A stretch of 64,000 bases of DNA from Poseidonibacter antarcticus (GTDB lineage Bacteria > Campylobacterota > Campylobacteria > Campylobacterales > Arcobacteraceae): NCBI RefSeq assembly GCF_003667345.1, contig NZ_RCWF01000001.1:248001-312000 (forward strand), in the 5' to 3' direction. Both the position numbers and the translations under genes were made by a program. Of the stretch, positions 26,089-34,706 are shown piece by piece; positions within the stretch are counted from its first letter, which is position 1, and every line of letters begins with the position of its first letter. The notes under the pieces are model-generated. The model was given only the letters and a program-made list of their open reading frames with translations. It ran no database searches and had not been told where the DNA came from.

Positions 26089-26094
26089 TATAAT
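26089..26094 (+). promoter_or_regulatory. -10 box of the efflux operon
   Basis: TATAAT lies directly before, and by one base within, the TTAGAACA palindrome, 42 bases upstream of the TolC-fusion start codon. Confidence 0.6.
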
Positions 26095-26111
26095 TAGAAC
26101 AAATGTTCTAA
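26094..26111. promoter_or_regulatory. Perfect palindrome, likely TetR operator
   Basis: TTAGAACAAATGTTCTAA has perfect 8-base arms with a 2-base centre. It abuts the TATAAT box and covers the expected transcription start, so a bound repressor would block initiation. The operon's last gene encodes a TetR-family protein, the natural candidate for the binder. Confidence 0.75.
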
Positions 26112-26135: not shown

Positions 26136-28457
26136 ATGAAAAAGTTAATAATTTCACTGTTTCTAATGAGTTTTTTTCTACTAACACTTGAAGCTTCTGT
26201 TAATATTGCAGTTTTAAGTGATAGCAAAAGTCAATTCAAAAAAGAGACAGCTCTAAAACTTAAACAAGAACTACAAGACCTAACAAATGGTGAATTTAAA
26301 ATAAGCTTTCCAAGATCAAAGCAATTCTATGGAGATTTTTCTACTGTTGATTTGAAAAAGCACCTAAAAGATTTACAAGAAGATTCTAAAGTAGATATGA
26401 TTATTACTATTGGTTTACGTGCAAGCCAAATAGCTCGTAAAAGCAAACTACAAAACAAAGCAGTTTTTGCTCCTTTTATTTTTCAAACTATTACACCTAA
26501 AAAAGATGAAAGTGGAATAAAAAACTTTAATTATTTAAGAGTTGATATATCATTTAAAGATGAACTTGAAAGATTTTTAGAAGTTACAAATTTTTCAAAC
26601 TTATCTATTATGATAGATGAAGATCTTTATCAAAGTTTTCCAAAAGCAATAAAACATATTAAAACTATTGCAAATGAAAAAAGAATTAATCTTAATTTTA
26701 TTCGTCAAAAAAATCCAAATGATAACTTGATAGATAAAATTCCTACAAACAGTGATGCAATTATGATTGCAGCTCTTCCACAAATAACTAAAAAGGCAAA
26801 AGAAGAACTAATAAATGGATTGATTTTGAAAAAACTCCCTTCTTATAGTTTAACACCTGAAATTAATGTTGAAGAAGGGATTTTAGCTTCATCTATAAAT
26901 CAAGATAAATTTAAAAGACGTTTAAGAAAACTTAGTTTAAATATCCAAGCGGTACTTCGTGGAGAAAAAGCTAGTAAACAAGATATTTTATTTAAAGAAA
27001 AGCATAATCTTACAATTAATATGCAAACAGCTAGAAGTATTGATGTTTATCCAAATTTTAAACTATTAAGAGATATTAAACTTTTAAATGAAGAACAAAA
27101 GAATATTAAAGCTTTAACATTAGAACAAATAGCAAAAGAAGCAGTTCAAAATAATTTATCTATCATAAGTGGAAAATTAGGTGTTAAAGCAAGTGAACAA
27201 ACAATTGAAGAGGTAAAATCTGTATTTTATCCACAAATTACAGCTAGCTTGGATTATTCACAATTAAATGATGATAATATCTATGTTGAAACTGGTTTTT
27301 ATGCGCAAAAAACTTCAGAAGCTTCTATTAGCTTACAACAAATACTCTTTTCTGAAAAAGCCCTAGCAAACTTAGAAATACAAAAAGAGTTACAAATATC
27401 AAAAGAAGCACAGCAAGAAGCACTAGAATTGGAAGTAATAAAACAAGCTACAACACTTTATTTAAAAGTATTAGTAAGTAAAACTTATACAAAAATTGCA
27501 AGTGATAATTTAGCTCTAACACAAAGAAATCTTAAACTTGCAAAAAGTCGTGTTTCATCAGGTGCATCAGATCGTTCGGATCTTTATTATTGGGAAAGTA
27601 AAATAAGTAGTACAAAACAAAATCTTTTAGATGCAAAAGCAAATGTTTCAAAAGTTAAAGACCTTTTAAAACGTATTTTACATCGTCCTTTAGAAGAAAA
27701 TATTTCTATTGCTTCAATCAGTCTTGAACAATTACATAAATTAATAGGAAATCAACGACTTATAAAAGAAGTGGCAAATGAAAAAAGCTATAAACAAATG
27801 GCAAACTTTTTTATTAAACACGCACTAAAAAATGCACCTGAATTAAAAAGTCTAAATGCTAATTTATCAGCTCAAAGAAGACAACTTTTATCACAAGAAC
27901 GTGATTATTATACACCTAGTGTGATTTTAGCTGGTGAAGTAAATCATGTTTTTGATGAACAAAGAACAATAGATAGCTTTTCTCTTGAAAATGATACAAA
28001 CTGGCAAGCTGTTGTTAAACTTTCATTACCACTTTATGAAGGTGGTGCAAAAAATGCTAGAAAACAACGAACGCAATTACAATTACAACAGCTTCAATCA
28101 AAATATTTAGACCAAATAGAGGGCATAAAAAGAAATATCTGGGAAGATATGCACGCTATAAAAGCTAGTTATCCTTCTATTGAATTATCAAAACAAGCCG
28201 CACAATCTGCACAAAAAAGTTTTGAACTTATAAGTGCAAACTATGCAAAAGGAACACGAGCTATGACTGACCTTTTGATTTCACAAAATGCAAAACTAGC
28301 AGCAGATAGTGCATCAGCAAATGCGGTATATCAATTTTTAATTGATTTTACAAAACTACAACGAGATATTGCTTCTTTTGATTTTTTCCTTAACCGTAAG
28401 GGATATAATACATTAGCTCATACTTTAGAAACAACACTTAAAACAAATAAGGAGTAA
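26136..28457 (+). CDS. TolC-type outer-membrane efflux protein with N-terminal ABC_sub_bind-like domain
   Basis: The 773-residue exported protein has a signal peptide (1-20, ending LTLEAS). Residues about 21-305 look like the substrate-binding fold of the ABC_sub_bind family: NIAVLSDS at the start, DMIITIGLRASQIA near 87-100, GILASSINQDKF, and the family-typical end ILFKEKHNLTINMQTARSIDV. From about 326 (ALTLEQIAKEAVQNN) to the end it is a TolC/OMF channel with the usual duplicated coiled-coil halves. Ordinary TolC proteins are about 450-500 residues, so the first 300 are an addition. It heads a six-gene operon with its own adaptor, ABC transporter and regulator. Confidence 0.88.
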   Translation: MKKLIISLFLMSFFLLTLEASVNIAVLSDSKSQFKKETALKLKQELQDLTNGEFKISFPRSKQFYGDFSTVDLKKHLKDLQEDSKVDMIITIGLRASQIARKSKLQNKAVFAPFIFQTITPKKDESGIKNFNYLRVDISFKDELERFLEVTNFSNLSIMIDEDLYQSFPKAIKHIKTIANEKRINLNFIRQKNPNDNLIDKIPTNSDAIMIAALPQITKKAKEELINGLILKKLPSYSLTPEINVEEGILASSINQDKFKRRLRKLSLNIQAVLRGEKASKQDILFKEKHNLTINMQTARSIDVYPNFKLLRDIKLLNEEQKNIKALTLEQIAKEAVQNNLSIISGKLGVKASEQTIEEVKSVFYPQITASLDYSQLNDDNIYVETGFYAQKTSEASISLQQILFSEKALANLEIQKELQISKEAQQEALELEVIKQATTLYLKVLVSKTYTKIASDNLALTQRNLKLAKSRVSSGASDRSDLYYWESKISSTKQNLLDAKANVSKVKDLLKRILHRPLEENISIASISLEQLHKLIGNQRLIKEVANEKSYKQMANFFIKHALKNAPELKSLNANLSAQRRQLLSQERDYYTPSVILAGEVNHVFDEQRTIDSFSLENDTNWQAVVKLSLPLYEGGAKNARKQRTQLQLQQLQSKYLDQIEGIKRNIWEDMHAIKASYPSIELSKQAAQSAQKSFELISANYAKGTRAMTDLLISQNAKLAADSASANAVYQFLIDFTKLQRDIASFDFFLNRKGYNTLAHTLETTLKTNKE

Positions 28458-28464
28458 GTCTTTT

Positions 28465-29442
28465 ATGAAAAAAATTATCTATCTTATACTTATAGTAATA
28501 GTTGCCATTGGTGCTAAATTTGCTTATGATTATATGAATAAACCTTCAGCTTTAGAGGGATTTGCCTTTGGTAATGGAAGAATAGAGACAACGCAAGTTG
28601 ATATTTCTACTAAACTTCCAGGAAGACTAGAATCTGTTTTAGTTAAAGAAGGTGATATGGTAAAAAAAGGTGATGTTCTTGCACGACTTGATAGTAATGA
28701 ACTAAATGCAAAATTATCACAAGCAAAAGCTCAAGTTGAACAAACAAAACAACAAAAAAACTATGCACTTGCACTTGTACGTGAAAGTCAAAGTACATTA
28801 AATTATAGTAAAAAAAATCTAGCACGTGCAAAAGCACTTTATATAGATGATAATATTCCTTTAGCTAACTTACAAGAAAGTCAAACAGCAGTAGAACGTG
28901 CTAAAGCAGCCTTAGAAGCTGCAAAAGTACAAGTAATAAGTGCTGATGCTAGTATTAAAGCAGCACAAGCACAAGTTAAAACTATTCAAGTAAATATAGA
29001 TGATAGTACACTTTATTCACCTATTAACGGAAGAGTACTTTATCGTTTAGTAGAAGAAGGTGAAGTTGTAGGAAGTGGTGGAAAAATTCTTTCAGTTTTA
29101 GAACTTACTGATACTTTTATGACTATATTTTTACCTACATCTCAAGCTGGTTTAGTTGATATTGGTTCAAAAGCACGTATAGTATTAGATGCTTTACCTA
29201 ATCTTGCAATTCCTGCAACAGTTAGTTTTATCTCTCCTCAAGCACAATTTACACCAAAAGAGATTGAAACACAAAGTGAGCGAGAAAAATTAATGTTTCG
29301 TGTAAAAGTTAAAATAAACCCTCTTTTACTTTCACAACATCTTAAAAAAATAAAAACAGGTCTTCCAGGAATTGCATATATTCGTTTAGATGAAACTAAA
29401 CCTTGGCCACAAATGCTTAGTAATGTAGCGAAAATCAAATAA
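28465..29442 (+). CDS. HlyD/YbhG-type membrane fusion protein
   Basis: The 325-residue periplasmic adaptor has an N-terminal membrane anchor (about 3-20), then a lipoyl/barrel half ending [12 protein letters not shown] coiled-coil hairpin (about 75-170) is rich in Ala, Gln and Lys, and a second lipoyl half ([22 protein letters not shown]) is followed by a beta-barrel domain. This arrangement links an inner-membrane ABC exporter to TolC. It starts seven bases after the TolC-fusion gene and ends two bases before the ATPase gene. It is closest in layout to YbhG of the YbhGFSR exporter. Confidence 0.93.
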
Positions 29443-29444
29443 TT

Positions 29445-32162
29445 ATGAACACTGTAGCCAAACTAAGCCATGTAACACACCGTTATGGTAAAGATATAGC
29501 TATTGATGATATTAGCTTAGATATTCCATCTGGTTGTATGCTTGGATTAATTGGACCAGATGGTGTTGGTAAATCTTCAGTCTTAGCTCTTATTTCAGGA
29601 GTTAGAAAACTACAAAGTGGAAATATTCAAGTATTAGATGTTGATATTAATAATAAAAAACAAAGAAATAATATTTGTCCAAGAATTGCATATATGCCAC
29701 AAGGACTTGGTAAAAACCTTTATATGTCACTTTCTGTTTATGAAAATATTGAGTTTTTTGCACGTCTTTTTGAACAAGATAAAAAACAAAGAACTGCCAG
29801 AATTGAAATGCTACTTGAAAGTACAGGTCTTTTAAACTTCAAAAATAGACCAGCAGGAAAACTTTCAGGTGGAATGAAACAAAAGCTAGGACTTTGTTGC
29901 GCACTTATTCATGACCCTGATTTACTAATACTAGATGAACCAACTACAGGAGTTGACCCACTTTCACGTAGACAATTTTGGACACTTATAGATAAAATAC
30001 GTAGCAATAGAAAAGATATGAGTGTTTTAGTTGCTACTGCTTATATGGAAGAAGCCCAACAGTTTGATTATCTTATTGCAATGGATGATGGAAAAGTGCT
30101 TTATACAGGTAGCCCAAAAACATTAAAAGAACAAACAAAAAGTGATGATCTTGATGCTGCTTTTATAGCCCTACTTCCAGAGGAAAAACGCTCAAATCAT
30201 AAAAAGCTTGTAGTTCCTCCTTATAAAGATAATCAATCTGACTATGCTATAGTTGCTGAAAATTTAACTATGAAATTTGGTGATTTTACAGCAGTTGACC
30301 ATGTTAATTTCAAAATTAGAAAAGGTGAAATATTTGGATTTTTAGGCTCAAATGGTTGTGGAAAAACTACTACAATGAAAATGCTTACAGGACTTATTGC
30401 ACCAAGTGAAGGGAAAGCATGGTTATTTGGAAAAGCTGCTAATAGTCGGGATTTAGAAATTCGTAAAAATGTTGGATTTATGACACAAGCTTTTTCTCTT
30501 TACTCTGAATTAACTGTTTATCAAAATCTTCTTTTACATGCACAACTTTTTCATATAGAAAAGGAAAAAATAGAGCCTAGAATAGAAGAAATGTTAGTAC
30601 GTTTTGATTTAGAAGAATATAAAAAAAGTTTTGCTTCTAGTTTACCACTTGGTATTAGACAGCGTTTATCTTTGGCTGTTGCAGTAATTCATAAACCGCA
30701 AATGCTTATTCTTGATGAACCAACTTCAGGAGTTGACCCAATTTCACGTGATAACTTTTGGGAATTATTAATTGATTTAGCAAGAAATGATGGTGTTACT
30801 ATTTTTATTTCAACACACTTTATGAATGAAGGTGAGCGTTGTGATCGAATATCATTGATGCACCAAGGTAAAGTTCTTGATAGTGATACACCAAAAGCAC
30901 TTACTTTAAAAAGAGGGAAAGATAAGCTTGAAGATGCATTTATTGAATATCTTGAAGAAGCTAGTCAAGAGAAAATAACAAATACCGAAGTTAAAATCTC
31001 ACAAACAAGTCAAAGTAAACAAACTAAAAGAAAATATTTTAGTTTTGATAGACTCTTTGGATATAGCTATAGAGAATCTTTAGAACTAATTCGTGATCCA
31101 ATACGTTTGACGTTTGCACTTGTAGGAATGATATTTTTACTCTTTATTATGGGTTATGGTATTACTATGGATGTAGAGGACTTACATTTTTCAGCACTTG
31201 ATAATGATAAAAGTCCACAAAGTAGAGACTATATTCAAAATATTTCTGGTTCGCGTTATTTTATTGAACAAAAAGAGTTATCTTCACAATCTGAACTTGA
31301 TTTACGTATGAAAAGTGGAGAATTAGCTGTTGCTATTGTTATCCCTCCAGGATTTGGTAAAAAACTACTCCGTGGAGAATCTGTAGAAGTTTCAGCTTGG
31401 GTGGATGGTGCGATGCCTTTTAGAGCCGAGACAATTAGCGGTTATTTATTAGGAATGCATTATGATTATATTCAAAAATTAGTTATGCAAACTTATGGAA
31501 TAACACCAGCACTTAGTTCGGCAAATATTGAAATGAGATATTGGTATAATCCTGATTTTAAAAGTATTTTTGCAATGGTTCCTGCTGTTATTCCTATTTT
31601 ACTTATTTTTGTACCTGCTATTTTAATGGCACTTAGTGTTGTACGAGAAAAAGAAATGGGTTCTATTACAAACTTTTATGCAACTCCTGTTACAAAACTA
31701 GAATTTTTAATTGGTAAACAATTACCATATATATTAGTAAGTATGATAGGATTCTTTGGCTTGCTCTGTCTTGCTGTTTGGGTTTTTGCTGTGCCTATTA
31801 AAGGAAGTTTAATAACCTTTAGTTTTGCAGCATTACTTTATATTATTACAACTACAGGATTGGGTTTACTTATTTCTTCTTTTGCTAAAACGCAAATTGC
31901 AGCATTAGCAGGAACGGCGATATTAACACTTATTCCTACTATTAACTTTTCAGGACTAAAAGATCCTGTTAGTTCACTTGAAGGAATTGGTGCAATTATT
32001 GGTGCAATATTTCCTGTAACATATTTTATTAATATTAGTAGAGGACTTTTTAGTAAAGCTGTTGAAATATCTGCACTTTATCATGATTTATTAGCCTTAT
32101 TTATTGCAATAATTATAATTACTCTTAGTAGTATTTTATTACTAAAAAAACAGGAGTTATAA
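29445..32162 (+). CDS. ABC exporter: two ATPase domains fused to a permease
   Basis: The 905-residue protein has ATPase domain 1 at about 5-240 (Walker [10 protein letters not shown] at 37-45, signature SGGMKQ at 141, Walker B LILDEP at 161). ATPase domain 2 is at about 265-500 (Walker [22 protein letters not shown]), and its signature motif is the degenerate LPLGIRQRL in place of LSGGQ. Residues about 545-905 form an ABC-2 permease with one N-terminal helix, a periplasmic domain and five C-terminal helices. The layout equals YbhF joined to a permease, as in RbbA/YhiH-like proteins. It overlaps the next permease gene by one base (TAATG). Confidence 0.93.
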
Positions 32163-33280
32163 TGATAAAGCATTTAAAAAATATTTTTCGTCTTGGAATT
32201 AAAGAGTTTCAAACATTATGGCGTGATAAAGTAATGGTAATTTTAATTGCTTATATTTTCTCTTTTGCTATTTATATTGATGCTACCTCAACATCTGTAG
32301 AAATTCATAATGCCTCTATTGTTTTTGTTGACCAAGATCATTCATCTCTTTCTGTACGCATTGTAGATGCATTTTATCCTCCACGTTTTAAAAAAGAAGG
32401 TATTGTTTCACAAAAAGAAGCAGATAATGGAATGGATGAAGGGACATATACCTTTGCTGTTATAATTCCTTCTGGTTTTGAGAAAAAGATAATTAATGGT
32501 AAAATAGCCAATTTACAACTAAATATTGATGCAACACGTATGACGCAAGCTGGTATTGGTGCTGGATATATTCAACAAATAATTTCAAAAGAAGTAAATG
32601 TATTTTTACAAAAACCTACAACAGTTTTACCTATTAATCTAATAACAAGAATGAAATATAATCCAAATTTACAAAGTACTTGGTTTGGTAGTGTAATGGC
32701 AATTATCAATTATATTTCAATGCTTTCAATTATGCTAGCAGGTGCTGCACTTATTAGAGAAAGAGAACACGGAACACTTGAACATCTTATGGTTTTACCT
32801 ATTAATGCTACTGAAATTATGCTTGCTAAAGTATGGTCAATGGGACTTGTAGTACTTGTAGCTGTTATTTTCGCATTACAATTTATTGTTCAAGGAGTAT
32901 TAGATGTACCAATAGCTGGTTCTATTCCTCTATTTTTATTAGGAACTACCTTAATTTTATTTGCTACTACATCTATGGGGATTTTTATGGGAACGGTTGC
33001 ACGAACAATGCCTCAATTTGGTTTGATATTTATTATGACAATTATTCCTATTATGATTCTTTCAGGAACATTAACACCATTTGAAAGTATGCCCAAGGCT
33101 TTACAATATTTAATGCACCTAGTTCCAACGAGTCATTTTGTTGATTTTGCACAGGCGGTACTTTATAGAGGTGCTGGTTTTAATGTAGTATGGATAGATA
33201 TGTTATGGATTTTATTAATTGGTATAGTATTTTTTCTTTTAACATTGATGATATTTAGAAAAAGTTTGGAGTCTGAATGA
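32162..33280 (+). CDS. ABC-2 type permease
   Basis: The 372-residue inner-membrane permease has one N-terminal helix (about 24-42), a large periplasmic domain (about 45-170) and five helices towards the C-terminus, with the ABC-2 signature region GAALIREREHGTLEHLMVLP. It resembles YbhR/YhhJ and should pair with the permease half of the preceding ATPase fusion. Its start overlaps that gene's stop, and its stop overlaps the PPK2 start (ATGA), which indicates translational coupling through the operon. Confidence 0.93.
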   Translation: MIKHLKNIFRLGIKEFQTLWRDKVMVILIAYIFSFAIYIDATSTSVEIHNASIVFVDQDHSSLSVRIVDAFYPPRFKKEGIVSQKEADNGMDEGTYTFAVIIPSGFEKKIINGKIANLQLNIDATRMTQAGIGAGYIQQIISKEVNVFLQKPTTVLPINLITRMKYNPNLQSTWFGSVMAIINYISMLSIMLAGAALIREREHGTLEHLMVLPINATEIMLAKVWSMGLVVLVAVIFALQFIVQGVLDVPIAGSIPLFLLGTTLILFATTSMGIFMGTVARTMPQFGLIFIMTIIPIMILSGTLTPFESMPKALQYLMHLVPTSHFVDFAQAVLYRGAGFNVVWIDMLWILLIGIVFFLLTLMIFRKSLESE

Positions 33281-34038
33281 AAAATAAAAAAACATATAAA
33301 AAAGAGCTTTATGATTTACAAGTTGAGTTAGTAAAGTATCAAAGTTATGTAATTAAAAAACAACTAAAAGTTTGCTTACTTTTTGAAGGTAGAGATACAG
33401 CAGGAAAAGATGGAACTATAAAACGTTTTACTGAACATTTAAGTCCTAGAGAAGCTAGAGTTGTTGCACTAAATAAACCTTCAAATAGAGATACAAAATC
33501 TTGGTATTTTCAACGATATGTTCCGCATTTACCAGAAGATGGTGAAATAGTTTTTTTTAATCGTAGTTGGTATAATCGTGCTGGAGTTGAAAAAGTTATG
33601 GGTTTTTGTACTCAAGAGCAGTATGTAAGATTTATGCAAGAAGTTGGTAGCTTTGAACATTTATTAACACATTCTCAAATTCATTTTTTCAAGTACTATC
33701 TTGATATTTCCAAAAATGCACAAAAACAACGACTTGCCTCAAGAAGAAAAGACCCACTAAAACAATGGAAAATAAGCCCAATTGATAATAAAGCACAAAG
33801 TATGTGGAATGATTATTCAAAAGCTAGAGATGCAATGTTTAGTAAAACAAGTTTCATCTATGCACCTTGGTATATTGTTCATACTGATTGTAAGAAAAAA
33901 GCTCGTATCAATGTTATTAAACACTTTTTAAGTCATGTAGAATATCCAAATAAAGATGAGGAAAAACTCATTTATGATACTAATATAGTTTTTAAATTCA
34001 ATGTCAAATATTATGAACAAGATTTAATAACAAAATAG
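33277..34038 (+). CDS. ppk2: Polyphosphate kinase 2
   Basis: The 253-residue PPK2-family enzyme has the P-loop-like Walker A FEGRDTAGKDGTIKRF (about 37-52), the Walker B region FFNRSWYNRAGVEKVMGF (about 93-110) and the lid segment LASRRKDPLKQWKISPID. The family transfers phosphate between polyphosphate and nucleoside phosphates. The length matches single-domain class I enzymes, which mostly make NTPs from NDPs; the exact class cannot be fixed by eye. Its place inside an efflux operon, translationally coupled to the permease by an ATGA overlap, is unusual. Confidence 0.92.
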   Translation: MKNKKTYKKELYDLQVELVKYQSYVIKKQLKVCLLFEGRDTAGKDGTIKRFTEHLSPREARVVALNKPSNRDTKSWYFQRYVPHLPEDGEIVFFNRSWYNRAGVEKVMGFCTQEQYVRFMQEVGSFEHLLTHSQIHFFKYYLDISKNAQKQRLASRRKDPLKQWKISPIDNKAQSMWNDYSKARDAMFSKTSFIYAPWYIVHTDCKKKARINVIKHFLSHVEYPNKDEEKLIYDTNIVFKFNVKYYEQDLITK

Positions 34039-34049
34039 AAAGAACATAT

Positions 34050-34706
34050 ATGTCAAAACGAAAAAATAATATTATTGAAACATCTATTAGTCTTTTTAAT
34101 AAAAAAGGTTATATGAATACTTCTACACGACATATTGCTCAGAGTATGAATATTAGTGTAGGAAATCTTTACTATTATTTTAAAAATAAAGAAGATATTT
34201 TAATTGAGATTTTCAATCATTTTATTGATGAAATTCTTTATGAAGTAAAAAAGATAAATTTCCAAGAAGATACTATGTTTCTTTTTGAAAATCTTTTGAT
34301 TAATAATTATCAAATAGAACGTAAGTATGCTTTTTTAACTATAGAGATTAATACAATTATTATGAGTAATCCAAACTTTAGAAAAATACGTCAAGAATCT
34401 CTTTTTTTAGAAATTGATTTATTTAAAAAGCTTATTAAACACCAAATCAAATTTGGTTATTTTATAAAGCTAGCTGAAGAAGAAATTAACTTTCTTATTT
34501 CAAATGTCTGGACTATTGCTGTTAATAGTTATACTTTTTGGTCTCTTTTAGACAAAAATATTGAAGAGAATTTAAAAAACTCAATACGCAATATTTATTA
34601 CTTTTTAAAACCATATTTTACTCAAAAAAGATTGGCATTAAAAGAACCTATTAAAAGTCAAGAAGAGTTAGAGTTTAAACTTGATGATATATCTGCCCTA
34701 CACTAA
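34050..34706 (+). CDS. TetR-family regulator of the efflux operon
   Basis: The 218-residue regulator has an N-terminal TetR helix-turn-helix (about 8-55; SLFNKKGYMNTSTRHIAQSM then ISVGNLYYYFKNKEDIL), followed by an all-helical ligand domain with no recognised family. It is the last gene of the operon, 11 bases after the PPK2 gene. The perfect palindrome over the operon promoter is the likely binding site, giving self-controlled repression. Its 3' end overlaps the convergent hypF gene by 32 bases. Confidence 0.92.
   Translation: MSKRKNNIIETSISLFNKKGYMNTSTRHIAQSMNISVGNLYYYFKNKEDILIEIFNHFIDEILYEVKKINFQEDTMFLFENLLINNYQIERKYAFLTIEINTIIMSNPNFRKIRQESLFLEIDLFKKLIKHQIKFGYFIKLAEEEINFLISNVWTIAVNSYTFWSLLDKNIEENLKNSIRNIYYFLKPYFTQKRLALKEPIKSQEELEFKLDDISALH

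Follow-up and report, generated by a model that had tools for sequence, protein, structure and literature searches.

An outer-membrane factor with an N-terminal ABC_sub_bind-related domain, conserved beside exporter pumps

In tripartite exporters the choice of substrate is ascribed to the pump and the adaptor, and the outer-membrane channel is regarded as a shared exit. A gene of Poseidonibacter antarcticus that places a substrate-binding-like domain in front of a TolC channel raises the question of what such a domain does at the outer-membrane end of an export system. The gene lies in a stretch of 64,000 nucleotides (hereafter the window), where it opens a series of closely packed genes that goes on with those for an adaptor, RbbA, YhhJ, PPK2 and TetR:

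26094..26111, no strand: 18-bp palindrome TTAGAACAAATGTTCTAA with perfect 8-bp arms, likely a TetR operator
26136..28457, plus strand: complete fusion gene, 773 aa, a single ORF, member of a conserved family
26136..26195, plus strand: signal peptide, residues 1-20 (translation MKKLIISLFLMSFFLLTLEA); homologues also begin with hydrophobic leaders
26196..27089, plus strand: N-domain, residues 21-318, a type I binding-protein domain related to ABC_sub_bind (PF04392)
27111..28400, plus strand: TolC/OMF domain, about residues 326-755, two OEP repeats (PF02321)
28465..29442, plus strand: HlyD/YhiI-like periplasmic adaptor (membrane fusion protein); HlyD_D23; PRK03598 (secretion protein HlyD) at 138 bits, below cut-off
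29445..32162, plus strand: RbbA, two ATPase domains and an ABC-2 membrane domain (NF033858, 1492.9 bits, cut-off 1050)
32162..33280, plus strand: YhhJ-like ABC-2 permease
33277..34038, plus strand: PPK2 polyphosphate kinase (PF03976, 309 bits)
34050..34706, plus strand: TetR-family regulator, last gene of the operon (PF00440, 51 bits)

A binding-protein relative ahead of a complete channel

In the ORF translation of the window the fusion gene reads continuously from the ATG at 26136 to the stop ending at 28457, with an AGGAG ribosome-binding site 5' of the ATG, and its signal peptide, judged by eye, has no lipobox cysteine. The earlier note had taken the C-terminal part for a complete TolC, and this is borne out by a PF02321 (OEP) match over residues ~329-741 (117.5 bits in 2 stretches, cut-off 22) that covers two full-length repeats; TIGR01844 (type_I_sec_TolC) scores 142.7 bits on the same part, under its own cut-off of 225. 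As predicted from its sequence, this OMF part should form a trimeric outer-membrane channel. Two full-length OEP repeats are common to the fusion and to ordinary OMFs, but the latter begin right after the signal peptide or lipid anchor, whereas the fusion carries about 300 residues before the first repeat.

For these residues the earlier note had proposed the PF04392 pattern (residues 21-305), a proposal that fails on the single sequence and holds for the family. PF04392 is not matched by the window protein itself (Pfam, gathering score 25.9 bits), the only Pfam match of the isolated window N-domain is DctP with an E-value of 0.01, and several other single members also lack a PF04392 match. 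On the other hand, 6 of 11 homologous N-domains from Campylobacterota do match PF04392, the best at 1.4e-10 and the N-domain of L033 at 38.6 bits against the cut-off of 25.9, and a profile of the 11 N-domains reaches VC_1101 (3lkv) with an E-value of 0.004, in register over the C-terminal two thirds. We also built an N-domain profile from 31 fusion sequences and compared it by hhalign with the TrpX-like importer protein of the same genome (L042), which gave 98.4% (E 8e-15, 243 columns) and, in global mode, 99.2% (E 1e-18, 293 columns), while column-shuffled control profiles reached at most 0.5%. The match spans the whole domain and includes the C-terminal IN..TA..I...P..LL segment, in line with the claim that the ABC_sub_bind pattern runs through to its typical end.

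A structural comparison, which the earlier note had suggested, points the same way as far as a weak model allows. The AlphaFold model of the N-domain was made from three input sequences (pLDDT 61), and a fold search with it placed 6hnj, 6hni, 3lft and 3lkv at ranks 1-4 (Z 11.3-11.5), that is, CD0873, SP1069 (TrpX-like) and VC_1101, all of them ABC_sub_bind proteins; the rmsd to these top neighbours is 7-9 Å, so that the arrangement of the lobes in the model is unreliable. Other type I binding proteins and LacI-type regulators follow at slightly lower Z, a rank that on this model would still be compatible with either group as neighbours. A full-length model, likewise from three input sequences, had a pLDDT of 44 and was left out of the analysis. 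Taken together, the PF04392 matches of homologues and the profile-profile match show that the fusion N-domain is homologous to ABC_sub_bind.

VC_1101 (3lkv), SP1069 (3lft) and CD0873 (6hni) share length and order of elements with the N-domain, and are free or lipid-anchored importer components that bind the aromatic amino acids Phe, Trp or Tyr (PMC6816091). The N-domain differs from them in being fused to an OMF, in having exporter genes as neighbours and in its motifs, since TDP and DNT, common to four importer proteins, are replaced in the fusion profile. We infer that these two motifs have a role in ligand contact, and any ligand of the N-domain is probably something other than an aromatic amino acid. 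Beyond the fusions, the N-domain profile found free-standing proteins of 320-390 aa in large proteobacterial genomes, and a viral collection yielded no relatives. The window genome also holds two ORFs of ~725-730 aa (L043 and L044) with N-terminal PF04392 matches, by which ABC_sub_bind domains recur in further large proteins of the genome.

Spread of the fusion and its pairing with pumps

We surveyed 397 genomes of Campylobacterota and 369 of Gammaproteobacteria. The N-domain is present in 11 of the former, always within a fused ORF of about 780-880 aa, and the search for the same fusion in Campylobacterota that the earlier note had called for found it at 12 loci, one of them in a Sulfurimonas MAG. 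More than 25 genomes besides that of the window have ORFs of this two-part build, 770-870 aa long, and the fusion is not restricted to Campylobacterota: about 20 of the 369 gammaproteobacterial genomes carry it, it was found in a gammaproteobacterial MAG, and it is present in 1 of 299 genomes sampled across the phylum of the Gammaproteobacteria. In Sulfuricurvum kujiense it is borne on plasmid pSULKU01 (WP_041667226.1, annotated "ABC transporter substrate binding protein").

The OMF halves of every tested fusion form one clade (support 99/99), separate from other OMFs, the divergence of N and C halves is correlated (r 0.88), and conservation is similar in the two (0.465 versus 0.502). Thus, N-domain and OMF were joined once, long ago, and have since been kept together under selection, with both halves constrained. 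What began as a single oddity thereby grows into a conserved family of OMFs placed in an operon context, a variant of the tripartite exporter. The papers open to search, which included literature on RbbA, YhiI and YhhJ function, yielded no prior description of a PF04392/PF02321 or binding-protein-TolC fusion. The two accessions, PF04392 and PF02321, co-occur in a list of the Burkholderia surface immunoproteome.

The window operon is of the RbbA type, with an RbbA equivalog above its cut-off flanked by a YhiI-like adaptor and a YhhJ-like permease, and thus supplies the exporter context that had been claimed for the fusion gene; importer permease or ATPase genes were not found beside it. The earlier note had, however, named YbhFSR-type partners, which does not fit: YbhFSR consists of a separate YbhF ATPase and two permeases, YbhS and YbhR, whereas here a single gene joins the ATPase with an ABC-2 domain and one further permease follows, as in RbbA/YhhJ. 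The order of adaptor, RbbA and permease is identical to that of E. coli yhiI-rbbA-yhhJ, to which the window operon adds a dedicated fused OMF, TetR and PPK2; the E. coli operon is not known to have an adjacent fused OMF. One published RbbA study carries a retraction notice (PMC12169533).

This pairing recurs across genomes. The window YhhJ is 60-72% identical to the YhhJ genes adjoining other Campylobacterota fusions, and among the 11 genomes of this phylum that carry the fusion, 10 have the YhiI-RbbA-YhhJ set, the remaining one (L037) having an adaptor and an RND pump instead. Full RbbA was detected in 10/11 genomes with the fusion versus 6/386 without it (397 Campylobacterota; Fisher p 4e-15), and the YhiI-RbbA-YhhJ operons of those six genomes (L105-L110) lack an adjacent fused OMF. 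In Gammaproteobacteria an adaptor and a pump are next door at 17 of the 18 loci whose neighbours could be read (9 RbbA, 8 RND), the exception being L131 (4826-7141), where a fusion OMF stands without adjoining adaptor or pump; outside these 18, the reading frame of L126 is broken and the contig ends at L046. The fusion gene is mostly last at the gammaproteobacterial RbbA-type loci, and this difference in gene order indicates that the linkage between fusion and pump was kept despite rearrangement. RND pumps accompany the fusions at L037, L125, L127-L130 and L132-L134, and the type of pump switched at least a few times on the fusion tree. Thus, the fusion pairs near-constantly with an adaptor and an ABC-2 or RND pump.

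A further close comparison is with TetR-OMF-MFP-RND operons (L002-L006, L164-L178), which share a similar TetR and the same operator with the window and whose OMFs are 27-30% identical to the fusion OMF, but have an N-terminal region of only ~115 aa where the fusion has its N-domain of ~300 aa. The sister-group OMFs among them (L002-L006, L168-L178) are 585-604 aa long, and their N-terminal region looks alpha/beta by eye. Compared with the ABC_sub_bind profile by hhalign, the ~115-aa region scored 0.2%, with two collinear sub-threshold pieces only. We do not claim these regions as one-lobe remnants of a binding domain, as there is no significant match and the OMFs form a sister group rather than nesting within the fusions.

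Proposed roles of the N-domain

We consider it about an even chance that the fusion is an exit duct whose N-domain senses its surroundings. In such a system, a whole ABC_sub_bind-type binding protein joined to the N-terminus of an OMF would belong to an outer-membrane exit duct dedicated to a tripartite exporter under TetR control (see below), with YhiI as adaptor and RbbA and YhhJ as ABC-2 pump. Three copies of the N-domain would stand as a periplasmic collar around the channel, beside the docking site of the adaptor; each may report or catch a periplasmic ligand, either the cargo or a molecule signalling it, and closure of the two lobes could favour adaptor docking or channel opening. The placement of the collar follows from where OMF N-termini arise: the N-terminal lipid anchor of OprM originates at the equatorial domain (PMC8277102), and by this analogy a three-part collar of N-domains should lie near the adaptor. 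A globular partner can be accommodated there, as indicated by the E. coli lipoprotein YbjP, which sits on the equatorial belt of TolC in a 3:3 complex (PMC13095208).

The pattern of conservation bears on whether the N-domain still binds anything. Two residues at the ends of strands that face the expected cleft, D9 and G73, do not vary among the 31 fusion sequences, D141 is kept in 27/31, and the full two-lobe length is retained throughout; these features favour the ligand-responsive reading. They also speak against the main alternative, since a mere spacer would not require them. This alternative, which we regard as somewhat doubtful yet the most serious of the competing explanations, holds that ligand binding has been lost and that the N-domain is a structural collar, a scaffold that positions the OMF for adaptor docking, for stabilisation of the trimer or for placement relative to peptidoglycan or membrane. 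The loss of the importer motifs TDP and DNT would fit such a scaffold, as would the absence of preferential conservation in the cleft (strand C-terminal loops versus the rest, p 0.71, on the low-confidence model) and the location of the best conserved residues, among them R244, ALN (247-249), INM.TA (274-279) and P286, close to the link to the OMF. The fusion also works with two unrelated pump types, and YbjP on TolC provides a precedent (PMC13095208).

Pumps of the RbbA and RND types can evidently work without the N-domain, given the sister OMFs with their ~115-aa regions and the six RbbA operons that lack an adjacent fused OMF, a point against the ligand-responsive reading.

It is highly improbable that the N-domain acts in uptake, as a parked binding protein that passes a nutrient on to an importer encoded elsewhere; membership in a family of tyrosine-, phenylalanine- and tryptophan-binding importer proteins would suit this idea, but the canonical importer cassette of the genome has its own ABC_sub_bind protein (L042), the fusions adjoin exporter genes rather than importer permeases, and the ligand motifs of the N-domain differ. 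A frameshift or an assembly error joining two genes, an objection anticipated in the earlier note, is practically inconceivable and refuted by many independent homologues, as more than 25 assemblies, each independent of the others, contain the fusion, among them single-contig chromosomes and plasmid pSULKU01, and nothing was found in favour of an artefact.

Channels of a conserved branch that bear an entire binding-protein domain and serve pumps of two unrelated kinds suggest that an exporter can have a site of recognition or control at its outer-membrane end. If the N-domain does respond to a ligand, as we propose, finding that ligand would be a testable way to learn what RbbA exporters transport.

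Control of the operon

The palindrome (26094-26111) and the end of a TATAAT -10 box (26089-26094) overlap just 5' of the fusion ATG, and the window genome has a single other exact copy of the palindrome core, which lies within an ORF. Of 15 related TetR-OMF-MFP-RND operons from the same bacterial family, at least 12 have this site, TAGAACA-NN-TGTTCTA, ahead of the TetR gene, often doubled; loci that share it with the window operon include L002, L005 and L168-L175. The window TetR (34050-34706) is 50% identical to the TetR of one related RND operon, the one compared. This resemblance, together with the recurrence of the site before related TetR operons, makes the TetR at 34050 a likely repressor of the window operon, acting through the palindrome. 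TetR control is typical for pumps of toxic small molecules.

The start of PPK2 overlaps the stop of yhhJ, and PPK2 is therefore probably co-transcribed with the exporter genes. PPK2, which here lies between permease and TetR, was not seen among the genes of the other fusion operons read. In three related fusion operons (L032, L034 and L036) a different palindrome (AATTCATAAAATGAATTAAGTTCATTTTATGAATT in L036) precedes the TetR gene and is probably the operator proper to those operons.
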